A DNA stretch of 64,000 nucleotides, from positions 62,001-126,000 of the forward strand of contig JAOAJK010000003.1 in the NCBI GenBank assembly GCA_026414225.1, read 5' to 3'. The position numbers were made by a program, and so were the translations under genes. Source of the DNA: Thermoplasmata archaeon. GTDB lineage: Archaea > Thermoplasmatota > Thermoplasmata > Lutacidiplasmatales > SKW197. The notes beneath the pieces were generated by a model. It worked only from the letters and a program-made list of their open reading frames with translations, was not told the DNA's origin and searched no databases. Shown in pieces: positions 28,961-38,414 of this stretch; within the stretch, counting starts at the first letter, position 1, and each line of letters starts with the position of its first letter.

Positions 28961-29194
28961 ATGGAAAGTGTTTATGTATTGATTGAAACGGATTCTGGCG
29001 AGCTTGAAAAGGTAGTTGCTGAATTACGGAAAAAGCAAGGGGTGAGGGAGGTAAGTGCAATCACAGGGCCTTTTGATGTGATCGTAAAGATCGAGACAGA
29101 GCACATAACTGAAGCCCTTCAAACGATAGTTCACGACATCCGAAAAATAAAAGGGGTAAAGAGCACTGAGACCCTTGTCTGCATAAAATTATAA
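28961..29194 (+). CDS. stand-alone Lrp/AsnC ligand-binding (RAM) domain protein
   Basis: 77 aa MESVYVLIETDSGELEKVVAELRKKQGVREVSAITGPFDVIVKIETEHITEALQTIVHDIRKIKGVKSTETLVCIKL. Confidence 0.9.
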   Translation: MESVYVLIETDSGELEKVVAELRKKQGVREVSAITGPFDVIVKIETEHITEALQTIVHDIRKIKGVKSTETLVCIKL

Positions 29195-30087
29195 TGTATC
29201 TGTTCATCCTCTATCTCCTGCTGTTTGTTTCTCTTGGCTGCTTCGGTGTGGGCTGCTTTTCAAAAAAGGAATTGCGGTATAAGGCGAGAATCGTTGGCTA
29301 TATCCTCTTTGGTTTCTACTGGCTCCTTTACACTCCCCATTATTTTTACATTCACGATTATTTCCCTATGTTCCTGTCAGGAACCGCAATTATCGGGTTT
29401 GCATTTCTTGCCTACAACGAATACATTTCGCTCTCCCTGAATGAAAAAAACGAGAGCATGGAATTTCTCGCGAAGCTGATATTCGGTGCAGGTGTGGTTT
29501 ATTATGTGGTTGATTGCATCCCGGTGCTCAGCGCCTTCCTCATTCAGTTGGTAACTGAGCAAAGTGTCTGGTTTGCCAACCTTTTCTTCATGGATGGTGT
29601 CACCACCGGAAGTTTAAATTATCTAGGCAATGCCCAGTTTGTTCGCACCAACTTCGAAGAGATTTACATGGAAGTGATGTGGGGAGGAAAGAATGTGGTA
29701 AATATTGTGCTCGCATGCACGGGTATTCAGGCAACTGTTGTGGATGTATTTGCGGTGGTTGCCACCTCTTCCAGTATCAAAAGAAAATTTGCCTGCATCG
29801 GTCTTACGATTCCCGTAATCTACATCGTGAACGCAATGAGAAATGCGATTGTAATCTACTGCACTGCAACCAATTATTCCTGGTTTTCTGGTGTAACTGG
29901 CTTCGAGTTCGCTCATAATTTTGTCGGCAAAGTTATAAGTTTTTCTACACTTTTCATTCTTACCCTTCTCATGTTTAAAATTCTGCCCGATTTCTACAGT
30001 AAAATCATCGGAATTGCGGAGCTTTTCAAGCGGGTGAAAAACTACAGAAACGGAAAATCTGGCTCAAGAAAAACCATTACCTTTTAA
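29194..30087 (+). CDS. artA: archaeosortase A-like transpeptidase
   Basis: 297 aa polytopic; NIVLACTGIQATVVDVFAVVA (catalytic Cys region ACTG) and VIYIVNAMRNAIVIY (Arg region). Confidence 0.85.
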   Translation: MYLFILYLLLFVSLGCFGVGCFSKKELRYKARIVGYILFGFYWLLYTPHYFYIHDYFPMFLSGTAIIGFAFLAYNEYISLSLNEKNESMEFLAKLIFGAGVVYYVVDCIPVLSAFLIQLVTEQSVWFANLFFMDGVTTGSLNYLGNAQFVRTNFEEIYMEVMWGGKNVVNIVLACTGIQATVVDVFAVVATSSSIKRKFACIGLTIPVIYIVNAMRNAIVIYCTATNYSWFSGVTGFEFAHNFVGKVISFSTLFILTLLMFKILPDFYSKIIGIAELFKRVKNYRNGKSGSRKTITF

Positions 30088-31348: not shown

Positions 31349-34300
31349 ATGCTTAGGGATATTCAGAAGGAGTTTAATCTTCAGGCACTGGAGGCGAAAA
31401 TATTCAAATACTGGGAGGAGCAAAAAATTTACACTAAAATAAAGAAGGCGAGGGAAAAATCTGAAAAGTTATATATTCTTGATGGGCCACCCTTTGCGAC
31501 CGGGATAGTCCACATTGGCCATGCGAGAAACAAGGTACTGAAGGATGTGTTGATAAGATACCACATGATGAACGGGAAGAATGTGGTTGCAATACCTGGC
31601 TTCGACATGCACGGGGTCCCGATCGAGCTAATGCTCGAACAGAGTTTGATGCTGAAGGGAAAGAAGGAAATTGAGAGATTCGGGCTCGAGAAATTTATTG
31701 AAAAATGCAGGGATTTCACGCTTGAGAACAAGAACAAGATGATTGAGGAGTACAAGATGCTCGGCATCTGGTTCGACTGGGACAGGACATACCTTACACT
31801 CTCGGATGCCTACATCGCCTCCGTGTGGTGGAGCATTGCGAGGGCGTACGAGCGGGGTTTCCTGGTAGAAATGGAAAGGGTTGTGCCCGTATGCCCCAGA
31901 TGTGAAACTGCAATTTCAGATAATGAGGTGGATTACAGGGAGATAAAGGTGCGCGGAGTTTATGTGATGGTCCCATTGAAAGGAAGGACTGACGAATTTA
32001 TCCTTGCATGGACTCCCTATCCCTGGATAGTCACAGGTGCCCTTGCAATTGCAGTAAACCCTGAGACAGAATATATAAAGGTAAAGGTGAAAACAGGTGG
32101 GGAGGAACATATTCTCATCACCTGCAAGCAGAATTTTGAAAAGGTCATTGGCTACAGACATTATGATAGCACTGAAATTCTGGACACAATCAAGGGAGAG
32201 AGTTTGAAAGGTATTGAGTACATTCCCCCGCTGCTCATAGAGGTACCCTATCACCAGGAGGTGAAAGGGGAGTGGGTCCATAAAATTGTTACCAGCAAGA
32301 GGGTGCAGCCAGTGCATACAGGTGCCTTTTTCGTCTCGCCGGGAATGGGAACAGTGGAATTTGAGATAGGGCAGGAGTACAATCTACCTGTATTCAATCC
32401 GTTTGAAATTGATGGAACCTTTACTTCCAAAATAATCAACAAATATGCCAGGTTCAGGTATGACGATGCCAATTCCCTGATTACGAGGGACCTGAAGGAT
32501 GGCGAGGTCCTGTACGCAGAGGTAGAGGAGATAGTAAGGGCAGGGCATTGCTGGCGTTGCGGTTCCCAGCTCTTGCACATCCCAACCAGGCAGTGGTTTA
32601 TCAGGACCAAGGGAATGAGGGATAGATTGCTGGAGACATCGGAGGGAATTAAATGGATGCCACCATGGGTGGGCACGGGCAGAATGTATGATTTTCTCTC
32701 GCATCTCAAGGACTGGTGTATCTCAAGGCAGAGGTACTGGGGCATTCCTATGCCCATCTGGAAATGTTCATGTGGCAACACGAAGGTTGTCTCCTCAATC
32801 GAAGAACTGAAGACAGGCAGGGGATTTGTTGAAGGGCAATCCCTCCATATTCCTTCGATCAACAATGTAGTGTTTACCTGTGATAAATGCGGAAAGGAGA
32901 TGCGCCGTGTTGAGGATACGGTGGATGTCTATATTGACTCGGGTGTGGCTTCATGGGCGTCCCTCGGTTATCCAGGTAAAAAAGAAGAGTTCAATGCCCT
33001 TTGGCCTGCAGACATCATAGTTGAATCCATCGGACAAACTAAAAACTGGTTTTTCTCCCAGATGGTTCTAAGCATGATTGCATTTGATAAACCTCCGTAT
33101 CAGACCGTGTTCGCCCATGGGCATGTTGTTGATGAGAAACGCAAAACGGTCACAAATGTGTCACCGAATGTGGATACCCCCCGGAACCTTGCAGGACGGT
33201 ATGGTTACGACGCTCTCAGATTATATCTTCTGTCAAAAGAGCCATGGCAGGACCTGGTTTACAGCGAGGAACGAATAAAGGGGTTCTACCGTTCCCTTTC
33301 GATACTCTGGAACTGTGCGGTTTTTGCAAATCTATACATGCGAAATGATAAGGTGGAGCTGAGAGATCTCACCTATGAAAATGTGAGAGACCATCTTTCT
33401 ACAGAGGACAGGTGGATGCTCTCAAGATTGGAGAATCTGAAGCTGCAGGCAACAAGTGAGATGGAAAACTTTGCTTATCACAAACTTTGGAAAATCGCCG
33501 AACGGTTTATCAAAGGAGAGTTTTCAAGAATCTACATAAAGGCAGTGCGGGAACGGATAAGAGCGAAGGGGCTTTCCCATGAAAAGATGGCTGCCTATTA
33601 TACTCTGGCCGAGGTTCTCAGCGGACTTGCAAAAATCCTCGCCCCACTTGCACCCCATGTTGCAGAGGAAATTTACCTCACATACGATGCAAGGCATGAA
33701 AGCGTGTTTTTCGAGCACTACCCAGCAGCGAACAAGGTCCTGATAGATGAACGGATTGAGAAGAAAATGAAAATTGCGATGGAAATTGTAAAGGAGATTA
33801 ACAGGGCGAGGGCGAATGCTGGAATTCCTTCTAGAATCCCTCTCAGAAGGGTGATTGTGAAGTCAGATAAGGAGGAAACATTTGAAAGTGCAAAGGATTT
33901 TGAGAAACTGATCACCCAGTTTGTGAATGCAAGAAAGGTTGAAATTTTACCACTTGGCAAGGACTGGGATGAGCTCATTCTGGAGGTCGTGCCCAATCCT
34001 TCGGCAATAGGGCTCGTTTACAGGCAGTGGGCAAGCAAGATAGGGCACCTCCTGAAGCTTCAGTCCGCAAAGAAAATCAAGGAAGGTATAGAGCGGGGAG
34101 AGTACATGCTGGGAATTGAAGGGCAGCTGGTCAGAATTCTCCCGAACATGGTCTCATTCAAGTCAAAGCTTCCAGAAAAGGTTGTCTCTGCACCAATCAC
34201 CAACGGCACAATCTACGTGGATTTGAATTTCACAGAGGAAGACATAGTCGACTCAAACATAAGAAGCTTGGTCCGTATTATCATGGAGATGAGGAAGGAG

Positions 34301-35641
34301 ATGCGGCTGAATGTGGATGATATAGTTGACCTTTACATTGCGACCGATGAACAGCTCCAGAACATTCTCCTCTCATATGTGGACAACATCAAAAATAAGG
34401 TCAATGCCAGGAACATTGAATTTGTATCAGGAGAAGTTCCAGGTGAATATGTGGTCGAGTGGAATCTAAGGGAGACCTCGCTAGTTCTCGGCATCACACC
34501 CCTGTACTTCAAATCGACCCTTGAGAAATTCATGGGGATACCCGGAATGACCCCCGAGCGCGGAAAAGCCCTGTTTAACGCCGGTTATGTCTCCCTTGAG
34601 AAATTAAAGACCGCTACAGTAGACGACCTCCAGAAGATACCCGGAATCGGGAAGACCTTTGCGAAAAAGATTGTTAGTTATTTTGCGGCTCCGCCTGCGG
34701 CTCAAAAACCAGAAACCCTGCCTGAAAAGAAGGTGGAAGCTGTAGAGGAGGAGCGGTTGCCAGCTGTTGAAAAGACAATTCCTGGAGGTATAGCTCCGTC
34801 TCCTGCACAGGAGAAACAAGCCCAGGCACAGACAGCAATTCCTGAGCCGAGCGAAAAGGAGAGGGAGAATTTTGTTCGCCTTATGATGACGAAATACACA
34901 ATCCCGGGGCTCGGACCTTCAAAGGCAAGAGCCCTCTATGATGCGGGCTACAGAACTGTCGAGATGCTGGCAAGTGCAAAAATTGAGGATCTAGCAAGGA
35001 TGCCTGCAATTGGAGAGAATCTCGCAAGGCGGATTCTGAGCTATCTATCTGAGTTCGGTGTCACGCCAGTGCAAGCCCCAGCAGAACCTGCTGCCAGCGT
35101 GCCTAAGACTGAACAGGTTGTGGAAAGCGGGGTGGAGAAAGTCGCGGAAAAGAGCGGTGGTGGAGAAATGGAGGAAAAGCCAGTCGAGTTCAGGCAGGGC
35201 TATTCTTACATAATCAAATGTGAACGGGCAGATAGAGCATACAAATATCTGAAAGATTATATGTCAAAGGCAAAACCGAAGGTAATCTGCGTCACCAGGG
35301 ACTACCCGGAAAAAATAAAGCAGAAATACGAACTTGAGGATGTTCCAATAATCTGGCTTTCGAATGTGGGCAAGGAAAATGCTGTGCGACCCAAGGACCT
35401 CGAAAAGCTCAGTTTAATTCTAGAACAATTCCTCTCGAAGAACAGGGATTCTGTTATATTCCTTGACGGAATTGAATATCTGATTACCAACAATAACTTC
35501 ATTACAGTGCTCCGCCTCATTCAATCGCTCAAGGACCAGATTGCAATTAACAATGCGATGCTTCTTATTCCGATAAATCCTGCAACGATGGAGGCATCCC
35601 AGTTCAACTTGATTGAGCGTGAAGTGGACGATGTAATCTAA
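31349..35641 (+). CDS. ileS: isoleucyl-tRNA synthetase fused to two helix-hairpin-helix units and a C-terminal DUF835-like domain
   Basis: 1430 aa; DGPPFATGIVHIGHARNKVLKD (HIGH), KRKTVTNVSP in the KMSKS-loop position, then IPGMTPERGKALFNAGYVSLEKLKTATVDDLQKIPGIGKTFAKKIVSYF, a second HhH, and GYSYIIKCERADRAYKYLKDYM...VIFLDGIEYLITNNNF. Confidence 0.92.
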   Translation: MLRDIQKEFNLQALEAKIFKYWEEQKIYTKIKKAREKSEKLYILDGPPFATGIVHIGHARNKVLKDVLIRYHMMNGKNVVAIPGFDMHGVPIELMLEQSLMLKGKKEIERFGLEKFIEKCRDFTLENKNKMIEEYKMLGIWFDWDRTYLTLSDAYIASVWWSIARAYERGFLVEMERVVPVCPRCETAISDNEVDYREIKVRGVYVMVPLKGRTDEFILAWTPYPWIVTGALAIAVNPETEYIKVKVKTGGEEHILITCKQNFEKVIGYRHYDSTEILDTIKGESLKGIEYIPPLLIEVPYHQEVKGEWVHKIVTSKRVQPVHTGAFFVSPGMGTVEFEIGQEYNLPVFNPFEIDGTFTSKIINKYARFRYDDANSLITRDLKDGEVLYAEVEEIVRAGHCWRCGSQLLHIPTRQWFIRTKGMRDRLLETSEGIKWMPPWVGTGRMYDFLSHLKDWCISRQRYWGIPMPIWKCSCGNTKVVSSIEELKTGRGFVEGQSLHIPSINNVVFTCDKCGKEMRRVEDTVDVYIDSGVASWASLGYPGKKEEFNALWPADIIVESIGQTKNWFFSQMVLSMIAFDKPPYQTVFAHGHVVDEKRKTVTNVSPNVDTPRNLAGRYGYDALRLYLLSKEPWQDLVYSEERIKGFYRSLSILWNCAVFANLYMRNDKVELRDLTYENVRDHLSTEDRWMLSRLENLKLQATSEMENFAYHKLWKIAERFIKGEFSRIYIKAVRERIRAKGLSHEKMAAYYTLAEVLSGLAKILAPLAPHVAEEIYLTYDARHESVFFEHYPAANKVLIDERIEKKMKIAMEIVKEINRARANAGIPSRIPLRRVIVKSDKEETFESAKDFEKLITQFVNARKVEILPLGKDWDELILEVVPNPSAIGLVYRQWASKIGHLLKLQSAKKIKEGIERGEYMLGIEGQLVRILPNMVSFKSKLPEKVVSAPITNGTIYVDLNFTEEDIVDSNIRSLVRIIMEMRKEMRLNVDDIVDLYIATDEQLQNILLSYVDNIKNKVNARNIEFVSGEVPGEYVVEWNLRETSLVLGITPLYFKSTLEKFMGIPGMTPERGKALFNAGYVSLEKLKTATVDDLQKIPGIGKTFAKKIVSYFAAPPAAQKPETLPEKKVEAVEEERLPAVEKTIPGGIAPSPAQEKQAQAQTAIPEPSEKERENFVRLMMTKYTIPGLGPSKARALYDAGYRTVEMLASAKIEDLARMPAIGENLARRILSYLSEFGVTPVQAPAEPAASVPKTEQVVESGVEKVAEKSGGGEMEEKPVEFRQGYSYIIKCERADRAYKYLKDYMSKAKPKVICVTRDYPEKIKQKYELEDVPIIWLSNVGKENAVRPKDLEKLSLILEQFLSKNRDSVIFLDGIEYLITNNNFITVLRLIQSLKDQIAINNAMLLIPINPATMEASQFNLIEREVDDVI

Positions 35642-35653
35642 TGGTGAATGAAT

Positions 35654-36532
35654 ATGGCAGAAGGAAAGAAAAGCACAATAAGAACCGAAGTGGTGCGGGC
35701 AATTACTGACCTCGTCAACGATAAGGAGGCGAGGGAACGAATCGACAAGGGAATCCTTGCCCATACGAAGGGGAGAGAGCACTGGATTTTGCATCTTCTT
35801 CTGAAGGCGCTTGAGGCCCAGCAGGAATACACAGAAACTGGAATGACCTATCTTCTTACCACTACAAACACGGTTTACAAGGACTTGGGTGCAAAAATTG
35901 AAGGTGTGAACAAGGAGATTGAGAATTCTATACCGAAAATTAAGGCAGAAGTAGGGGAAATCGAGGCAAAGAACTATGAGAGGCTCGTGGCGATGATTGA
36001 GGAGAGTTTCAAGAAGGTAAATGAGGGGCTCGGGAAAACCATCAACGAGAGCATTGGCAAAACTGCGGAGGCAATAAACACCCAGGCCCTTGAGACAAAA
36101 AATTTAACCCAGGCACTTTCAAGAGATGTGGCGGATACATTTAAGGTCGCTACCCAGGTGAGGTTGCTGATAAGCGAAAATATGCGAAAACTGAATGAGA
36201 TTGCCGAAGCACTGGAAAGAGGGGGTACCGGGGGCACTCCAGGTTCATCGGGGGAAATCTATCACGGGGCAGGAGACATAAAACCGTTGATTGAAAAAAT
36301 TGAGGGCAGAATTAATGAACTGAAGGGATTCGAGGAAAAGATGGACACAATGCTGAAGAGCGTGAACAAGCACATCGATGTAACTTCAATTGAGACCCAG
36401 CACAGAATTGAGAATTTGAGCAAGGGCCAGGTTGAAATCGTGCGGAGAGTTGAGGCCATTGAGAAAACCATGGCTGAACTGAAGGTAACGATGGAGTCGC
36501 TGAGAACGCTCTTACTCGAAATCAAAAAGTGA
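35654..36532 (+). CDS. helical/coiled-coil protein of unknown function
   Basis: About 292 aa, long predicted helices with a Gly-rich hinge (ERGGTGGTPGSSGE); starts 10 bp after the ileS fusion stop. Confidence 0.7.
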   Translation: MAEGKKSTIRTEVVRAITDLVNDKEARERIDKGILAHTKGREHWILHLLLKALEAQQEYTETGMTYLLTTTNTVYKDLGAKIEGVNKEIENSIPKIKAEVGEIEAKNYERLVAMIEESFKKVNEGLGKTINESIGKTAEAINTQALETKNLTQALSRDVADTFKVATQVRLLISENMRKLNEIAEALERGGTGGTPGSSGEIYHGAGDIKPLIEKIEGRINELKGFEEKMDTMLKSVNKHIDVTSIETQHRIENLSKGQVEIVRRVEAIEKTMAELKVTMESLRTLLLEIKK

Positions 36533-36536
36533 AAGT

Positions 36537-38414
36537 ATGATCTATGAGGAAATTCTCCAGCATCTCTATGCTTTAACCAGGTTTGGGACCAAACTCAACC
36601 TTGATAACATTGCATGTTTGCTTGAGAAGCTTGGAAACCCTGAAAAAAAATTCAGGACGGTGCATGTCACTGGGAGCAAGGGGAAGGGTTCGGTTTGTGC
36701 CTTCCTTCATTCAGTTTTAAAAGCTGCAGGGTTTAAAACGGGACTTTACACCTCCCCACATCTCATAGAGTTTAATGAGAGAATTGTAGTAAACGGGGAA
36801 AAAATTCCAAAGGAGAAGGTTGTGGAATACTATAACATGATAAGGGACATTGTCGGGGGGATGGTGGCCCAAGATAGAACAAAGCAAGTTACATTTTTTG
36901 AATTCACCACAGCCATGGCATTCAAATATTTTGCGGATTTGAAGGTGGATTATGCGGTTGTGGAGGTTGGGCTTGGGGGACGGCTCGACGCCACGAATGT
37001 GATTTTCCCTGATTGTTGTATCATCACGAATGTTGAACTCGAGCATACCAATGTGCTCGGCAAAACAATTGAAAAGATTGCGAGGGAGAAGGCAGGAATA
37101 ATAAAGCCAGGTGTGCCAGTGGTAACTGCTGCAACTGGTAGAGCTCTGAAGGTGATTGAGGAAGTTGCGAGGTTGAATAATTCGGAAGTGCTTTTGCTGA
37201 AGAAGGAGATGATTGAGATAAAGGAGAACAGGAAATTTTCGGTGCGATATGGGGACTGGTCTCTCGAAGATCTCGAGATCTCACTGTCAGGGAATTTTCA
37301 GTTTGAAAATGCAGCCCTCGCTGTGCTTTGCGCAAAGGTGCTAGGGATAGACGAGAGAAGCATAAGGGAGGGGCTAGAAACTGCTGTATGGCGTGGACGA
37401 TTTGAGAAGGTGCATCAGAACCCTGATGTGATTGTTGACTGTGCCCACACACCCAGAAGTGCAGAGGCGCTTGTGGAATCACTTGCGGCAAACTATGACA
37501 GGGTTAATTTTGTTTTCGGGGTATTTAAGGATAAGCGGAAAGGGAAGATTTTGAGAACGCTCTCGAGAATAGGGAGTGAGATAATAATCACTGAGCCGGA
37601 TTCTCCCAGGGCCGAGAAAGCTGAGAGAGTGAAAAGGATCGCTGAGAAATACTTTAGAAAGGTTGAGGTCATGCAGAGGGAGCAGGCGTTTGCCGCAATC
37701 CTCTCGAGGCAAGGTGTCTGGTGCATTTGCGGTTCCGTGTATCTTGCTGGTGACGCTCTTGCGTTCTTTGAAAAACAGAAATCCGAACGGGTCCCGGAAA
37801 ATACTGGAATCGACTGGTATAAGCTTGTGGAGACCCTTGAGAAAACCTACGGAGATGCTGGGCATTACGATGACCCCTTCAGGGTACTGGTTGCAACGAT
37901 TCTGTCCCAGCGCACAAAGGACGAGGTCACCTATCCGAGGGCTGAGGCATTATTTGCAAGGTATCCAGATGCCCTATCAATTGCAAGGGCAAAGCCGGAA
38001 GAAATTGCGGAAATAATCAGGCCAGTTGGGTTTTATAATATCAAGGCACGGAAGATTATAGAGGTGGCCAGGATTGTTGTGAACACCTACAATGGGAAGG
38101 TGCCAGATAGTATGGATGCGCTTTTGAAATTGCCAGGAGTGGGAAGAAAAACCGCAAACTGCGTGCTCGTGTTCGGGTTCGGAAAGGATGCCCTGCCCGT
38201 GGACACCCATGTCCATCGTATTTCGAACAGGATGGGTGTGATAAATACTGAGAACCCCGAAGAAACCGAAAATGCGTTGAAGCGGGTGGTCCCGAAACCA
38301 TTGTGGAAAAAAATTAACTACTTGTTTGTGGAGCACGGGAAGAATGTTTGCAAGCCAGTAAAACCAGGATGCGAAAGATGCCAGATTGCGGGATTCTGTG
38401 GGAGGAGAGTGTAG
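36537..38414 (+). CDS. fusion protein: folylpolyglutamate synthase (FolC) + endonuclease III (Nth)
   Basis: 625 aa; FolC: HVTGSKGKGSVCAFLHSVLKAAGFKTGLYTSPHL, VEVGLGGRLDATN; Nth: LPGVGRKTANCVLVFGF...LPVDTHVHRISNRMG and CKPVKPGCERCQIAGFC (C-x6-C-x2-C-x5-C). Confidence 0.93.
   Translation: MIYEEILQHLYALTRFGTKLNLDNIACLLEKLGNPEKKFRTVHVTGSKGKGSVCAFLHSVLKAAGFKTGLYTSPHLIEFNERIVVNGEKIPKEKVVEYYNMIRDIVGGMVAQDRTKQVTFFEFTTAMAFKYFADLKVDYAVVEVGLGGRLDATNVIFPDCCIITNVELEHTNVLGKTIEKIAREKAGIIKPGVPVVTAATGRALKVIEEVARLNNSEVLLLKKEMIEIKENRKFSVRYGDWSLEDLEISLSGNFQFENAALAVLCAKVLGIDERSIREGLETAVWRGRFEKVHQNPDVIVDCAHTPRSAEALVESLAANYDRVNFVFGVFKDKRKGKILRTLSRIGSEIIITEPDSPRAEKAERVKRIAEKYFRKVEVMQREQAFAAILSRQGVWCICGSVYLAGDALAFFEKQKSERVPENTGIDWYKLVETLEKTYGDAGHYDDPFRVLVATILSQRTKDEVTYPRAEALFARYPDALSIARAKPEEIAEIIRPVGFYNIKARKIIEVARIVVNTYNGKVPDSMDALLKLPGVGRKTANCVLVFGFGKDALPVDTHVHRISNRMGVINTENPEETENALKRVVPKPLWKKINYLFVEHGKNVCKPVKPGCERCQIAGFCGRRV

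Follow-up and report, generated by a model that had tools for sequence, protein, structure and literature searches.

We report that a fused isoleucyl-tRNA synthetase (IleRS) gene of a Thermoplasmata archaeon has lost its main catalytic and editing motifs and is still conserved as a full-length gene. It lies at positions 31349-35641 of a 64,000-nucleotide stretch of contig JAOAJK010000003.1 (hereafter the window), and the same genome encodes a second IleRS in which all motifs are intact. From these features we consider it about 60% probable that the product is a displaced synthetase retained as a non-catalytic, tRNA-binding adaptor. Below, G000 is the genome of the window, G001 a genome of the same genus, G002 a relative from the same order, and families are numbered with the prefix f.

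Domain organization of the fusion gene

The open reading frame (ORF) is open throughout and encodes 1430 aa. Pfam matches comprise tRNA-synt_1 (the catalytic domain, residues 17-636), Anticodon_1 (687-834), DUF5915 (856-1033), two helix-hairpin-helix (HhH) units (approximately 1063-1115 and 1184-1233) and DUF835 (1299-1425; E 5.5e-36), the last scoring 123.8 bits on the whole protein against a PF05763 gathering score of 33.1. The best PDB sequence matches, over residues 9-1011, are isoleucyl-tRNA synthetases. A preliminary description of this stretch had read the gene as a full-length IleRS core, ending near 34510, in frame with two HhH units and a DUF835-like domain, and the profile search that it proposed bears this out: HHH, HHH_5 and DUF835 follow a core that stops near residue 1054, close to that position. 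The features of the gene are as follows.

31349-35641, + strand: candidate pseudo-IleRS-HhH-DUF835 fusion ORF, 1430 aa (ORF call, Pfam, same fusion in G001, purifying selection)
31511-31522, + strand: HIGH motif, residues 55-58, kept (HMGH in G001; entirely gone in G002)
31949-32524, + strand: CP1 editing domain, residues ~201-392, degenerate (motif reading, G001 comparison)
33032-33046, + strand: GQTKN in place of DQTRG, residues 562-566 (the type-2 IleRS has DQTRG, as do almost all fused IleRSs with intact motifs)
33146-33160, + strand: TVTNV at the KMSKS position, residues 600-604 (LVTNV in G001; xMSKS in active relatives)
33389-33898, + strand: anticodon-binding domain, residues 681-850 (Pfam Anticodon_1; AlphaFold and Foldseek to IleRS structures)
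33926-34498, + strand: IleRS C-terminal tRNA-binding-type domain (DUF5915), residues 860-1050 (Pfam; Foldseek to 8c8v; retained in forms without the catalytic domain)
34511-34693, + strand: first HhH unit, residues 1055-1115 (Pfam HHH)
34871-35056, + strand: second HhH unit, residues 1175-1236 (Pfam HHH_5)
35189-35638, + strand: DUF835/iKaiC domain, residues 1281-1430 (Pfam; AlphaFold pLDDT 95; KaiC fold without P-loop sequence; 98% identical to G001)

An assembly or indel artefact merging two adjacent genes is ruled out, because G001 has the same architecture in a single 1425-aa ORF (84% identity) and the fusion recurs at full length in many families. Close relatives therefore do not all carry ileS and an HhH-DUF835 gene separately, an outcome against which the preliminary description had wished its reading to be checked.

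Loss of catalytic and editing motifs

In addition to the changes at DQTRG and KMSKS, where no lysine is left, the T-rich editing motif WTTTPWT reads WTPYPWI (32012-32026), and the editing Asp (GPEDF/GEDDY) is replaced by E within GTVEF (32357-32359). The zinc-binding cysteines are still present. The same losses are found in G001, so they are not sequencing errors. Both HIGH and KMSKS are reported to be indispensable for binding ATP and stabilising the transition state (PMC10485003), and with the KMSKS lysines lost, activation is unlikely. The protein passes the NCBIfam ileS equivalog TIGR00392 (703.4 bits against a cutoff of 621.4), so automatic annotation would name it IleRS, which is a trap for genome annotation. 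Fused or unfused copies with such losses are called dead below for short, on the strength of their motifs.

A second, type-2 IleRS in the same genome

Contig 28 of the genome (G000:C28) carries a separate 977-aa ORF for a type-2 (bacterial/eukaryote-like) IleRS, in which HIGH, KMSKS, TTTPW and the editing Asp (DDY) are all intact. It scores 908 bits on TIGR00392 and is 89% identical to its G001 orthologue; the other related synthetases in G000 are ValRS and LeuRS. The window protein as the sole essential IleRS is thus ruled out for this genome, and it does not appear to be the working IleRS there. With motifs lost, the gene conserved and a separate intact synthetase present, it can be classed as a putative pseudoenzyme related to aminoacyl-tRNA synthetases. 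The preliminary description, which overlooked both the degenerate motifs and the second IleRS, had called the protein an essential synthetase; this fails for G000, which lacks KMSKS and the editing residues in the fusion, and probably holds for other families, where an intact fusion stands alone.

Among plasmid records, the closest to the type-2 IleRS was a Sutcliffiella ileS (47%), with mupA at 42%. In a tree rooted on three plasmid-borne bacterial ileS genes, after earlier bacterial sequences had proved poor and long-branched, the archaeal type-2 copies formed one clade apart from them. Thinly sampled as it is, this clade would fit one acquisition event, after which the outcomes differed.

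Dead fusions always accompany an intact type-2 IleRS among the genomes read (16 genomes). The combination was seen in G000, G001, G002 (whose type-2 copy reads KLSKS), G410, G440, G445, G448, G138, G216, G300 and G375, and, among the follow-up genomes, in G484 and in four of f3 whose fusion is dead. Motif-intact fusions, in turn, had no second IleRS detected, with the exception of f11. In this family the roles are reversed in 3/3 genomes read (G350, G471 and the follow-up genome G482): the fused IleRS retains its motifs, whereas KISRA, KIKRG or KMRNV stands in place of KMSKS in the type-2 copy, which has also lost its T-rich and editing motifs.

L115, L116, L152 (G350, G471, G482): dead copies of type-2 IleRS, each retained next to a motif-intact fusion, f11

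No type-2 copy was detected in the follow-up genomes G472, G474, G479, G480 and G481, which have an intact fusion or an intact large IleRS, and these absences are weaker where assemblies are incomplete, as several follow-up assemblies are (57-89%). G443 is ambiguous, with LSKS and EQTAG in the fused copy and GVHH in place of HIGH in the second IleRS (L118); GVHH has been reported for hyper-resistant type-2 IleRS (PMC10485003).

Distribution and stages of decay

Searching with the C-terminal domain and reading the loci gave full-length homologues in many families of the class, mostly of 1380-1510 aa and 37-40% identical, with the same DUF835 at their end. An order-wide search at 1e-200 had confined the fusion to one genus, which these looser and domain-level searches overturned. 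A scan of genome contigs found one true relative, JAMCUS010000021.1 (G002). MSKS and the editing motifs are intact in the fusions of f4 (genus g24), f7, f9, f10, f11, f12, f15 and f17; the f16 fusion has MHKS, which is shared by one IleRS without the tail from another part of the phylum. In about 20 genomes of a dozen families, a motif-intact fusion is the only IleRS detected. The fusion is therefore old and apparently a functional IleRS in these single-IleRS relatives, and an essential synthetase bearing DUF835 probably exists in the class.

Dead copies are found at several stages. The window copy still has the whole IleRS core, the fused copies of G002 and f20 have lost both HIGH and KMSKS, and the proteins of f5 and f8 (~930-1010 aa) consist of the anticodon domain and DUF5915 with little or no catalytic domain, to which the short f5 forms add HhH and DUF835. 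In f3, a family in the same order as G000, 12/20 genomes have a homologue of a degenerate 1392-aa form, and the fused copies have lost more catalytic motifs than the window copy. The same AcnX genes adjoin the f5 forms without a catalytic domain and the active fusions of other families, which indicates that the same gene degenerated in place. When a tree was built from the C-terminal part, one well-supported clade together with f14/f18 held the dead copies.

Selection on the dead fusion

The dead fusion is under strong purifying selection, as judged from sequence divergence between G000 and G001. For the catalytic and editing parts, the nonsynonymous divergence (dN) is 0.07-0.09, although synonymous sites have reached or almost reached saturation, and is close to that of the active type-2 IleRS for the same genome pair (0.068). 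DUF835 is 98% identical (dN 0.011), and the linkers diverge freely (37-59% identical). From active to dead forms, identity falls from 0.67 to 0.35 in the N-terminal catalytic part and only from 0.68 to 0.55 in DUF835, and among dead forms it is 0.53 in DUF835 against 0.27 in the catalytic part. Conservation has moved to the IleRS C-terminal domain and DUF835. These data also reject a decaying pseudogene with its frame still open, for which the degenerate motifs might speak, given a full-length frame in two species and a gene retained in many families.

As a separate observation on the domain, the proportion of synonymous differences (pS) between the window and locus L009 is 0.55 in DUF835 (35189-35638) and 0.73-0.84 in the rest of the gene, which suggests gene conversion or another constraint.

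Predicted structure of the C-terminal half

The AlphaFold model of residues 681-1430 has a mean pLDDT of 81.5 and a pTM of 0.51, so that the positions of the domains relative to one another, separated as they are by disordered linkers, are unreliable. Foldseek matched it to the IleRS anticodon and C-terminal tRNA-binding domains (8c8v), and the modelled tail resembles the arrangement of HhH and RecA core in RAD51/RadA. DUF835 alone was modelled at pLDDT 95 with FlaH and KaiC as best Foldseek matches (E ~1e-5, TM ~0.7 on the query), and its alignment has no Walker A P-loop, GxxxxGK[ST], after the first strand. The domain is thus predicted to have a KaiC/RecA fold and, by the P-loop criterion, not to be an active KaiC-type ATPase. 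Elsewhere in G000, there are some 20 or more DUF835 matches on many contigs, and several large proteins start with an HhH_5 unit.

Neighbouring genes

No conserved neighbour of the window gene was found outside the genus. A coiled-coil-like protein, possibly in one transcript with the fusion gene, adjoins it in G001 too and was not found beside it outside the genus.

35648-36532, + strand: coiled-coil-like 294-aa protein, 6 bp downstream of the fusion ORF

Further downstream, one ORF (36537-38414) joins a Mur-ligase/FolC-like N-terminal part to an HhH-GPD endonuclease III-like C-terminal part, and upstream lies a weak match to an exosortase-like membrane protein (29194-30087). In f12 and f19, the gene immediately upstream of the fused ileS encodes a protein of 1883-1983 aa whose C-terminal domain is of the IleRS type.

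L079:2-5650; L080:8944-14700; L073:8926-14874: long protein with IleRS-type C-terminal domain, f12/f19, upstream of fused ileS

Discussion

In the explanation that we favour, the fusion gene would be the original archaeal-type IleRS of the lineage, to whose C-terminus HhH units and a KaiC-like DUF835 domain without Walker A were added long ago. In many sister families, the old fused protein still looks like a working IleRS. In the lineage of the window, a type-2 IleRS would have taken over charging, and the displaced protein would have lost its synthetic and editing motifs and yet been kept, presumably as a non-catalytic adaptor. The IleRS domains that it retains, anticodon-binding and C-terminal, may bind tRNA(Ile) or another nucleic acid together with HhH, and the KaiC-like domain may dock or assemble with partners, perhaps the adjoining coiled-coil protein or other DUF835 proteins. 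Such an adaptor could couple the state of translation to another process. A bolder form of this proposal, which we offer tentatively, is that the IleRS of the class was bifunctional, combining charging with regulation through the KaiC-like tail. Once charging had passed to an IleRS gained by horizontal transfer, the regulatory half would have been indispensable, and the enzyme would have become a non-catalytic, tRNA(Ile)-reading regulator linking translation to DUF835/KaiC-type signalling.

Several points weigh against the adaptor. First, of the folded parts, the anticodon domain differs most between G000 and G001 (71% identity), so it lends tRNA binding little support. Second, the window copy retains HIGH, the Asp of GxDxHG and, in the DQTxxW region, Gln and Trp, and it may still have weak or altered activity. 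Altered signature motifs can be tolerated in working type-2 IleRSs (PMC10485003). Third, some sections of the class, such as most f4 genomes and the f6 genomes sampled, gave no strong fusion match, which makes the fusion dispensable in some lineages; the set of 42 genomes was picked for having fusion matches and is uninformative on how often the fusion is lost completely. Fourth, f11 keeps a dead type-2 copy that has no tail, so the tail is not the sole reason why a dead IleRS survives. Finally, there are few independent events (the best tree has two changes, of which starred branches force one, and the f11 reversal adds another), and an independent-pairs test had too few independent contrasts for significance.

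The residues retained around the pocket, with purifying selection on the catalytic domain within the genus, would also fit a protein that kept its isoleucine pocket but lost activation, and that senses isoleucine or uncharged tRNA and signals via DUF835. We find this doubtful, and applicable only to the genus of the window, because the dead relatives in G002, f20, f5 and f3 have lost the pocket motifs as well. It is unlikely that any dead IleRS copy, whichever died, survives because it assists the active one, for instance by acting as a tRNA(Ile) chaperone or by joining it in an IleRS complex: the three f11 genomes leave room for such a role, but many genomes manage with a single IleRS, the f5 forms have no catalytic domain, and conservation is concentrated on the tail. 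We consider it very improbable that the protein functions as an ordinary IleRS with an added regulatory domain and that the second IleRS is a backup. The equivalog score, HIGH, the zinc-binding cysteines and the same architecture in functional-looking sole IleRSs would favour it; against it are the loss of KMSKS, DQTRG, the T-rich motif and the editing Asp in both species, the fully intact second IleRS, and related dead copies that lack HIGH or the whole catalytic domain.

Using this system, it can be tested whether the second function of an essential synthetase is strong enough to preserve the protein after its enzyme activity has been replaced. Living relatives show the intact fusion, dead fusions at several stages, forms without the catalytic domain and one reciprocal case. 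DUF835, a common but uncharacterised archaeal domain, also gains a concrete biological setting.

Compared with known systems, the protein shares with archaeal-type IleRS (TIGR00392) the core fold, zinc cysteines, HIGH, and anticodon and C-terminal domains, but it lacks KMSKS, DQTRG and the editing residues, carries the HhH-DUF835 tail and has another IleRS in its genome. Among PDB entries, it is closest to type-2 IleRS (IleRS2; Priestia megaterium 8c8v; MupA), both in sequence and in its C-terminal domain. DUF835 (PF05763) has been described as iKaiC, an inactivated KaiC domain of archaeal two-component proteins (PMC5847659), a term that agrees with the same Pfam match and the KaiC fold without P-loop sequence found here; the DUF835 passages of that paper contain no fusion to a synthetase, and no description of the IleRS-HhH-DUF835 fusion was found in the literature searched. 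Coexisting second IleRS genes, as in G000, are known in bacteria, and a Lokiarchaeon has ileS2 beside an archaeal-type IleRS (PMC4861432), but in G000 the type-2 copy seems to work and the resident copy to be dead. LeuRS-I of Sulfolobaceae, likewise a duplicated archaeal class I synthetase whose editing domain is disrupted, can bind tRNA and form leucyl-adenylate but does not aminoacylate (PMC9437257); it belongs to another synthetase, has no HhH-DUF835 tail described and is not linked to displacement of a resident enzyme. Dead synthetase relatives are thus already known, including HisZ, SbzA and other paralogues without an ordinary charging function (PMC9437257). Here, by contrast, a former main synthetase, still full length, was apparently demoted in place after its displacement.

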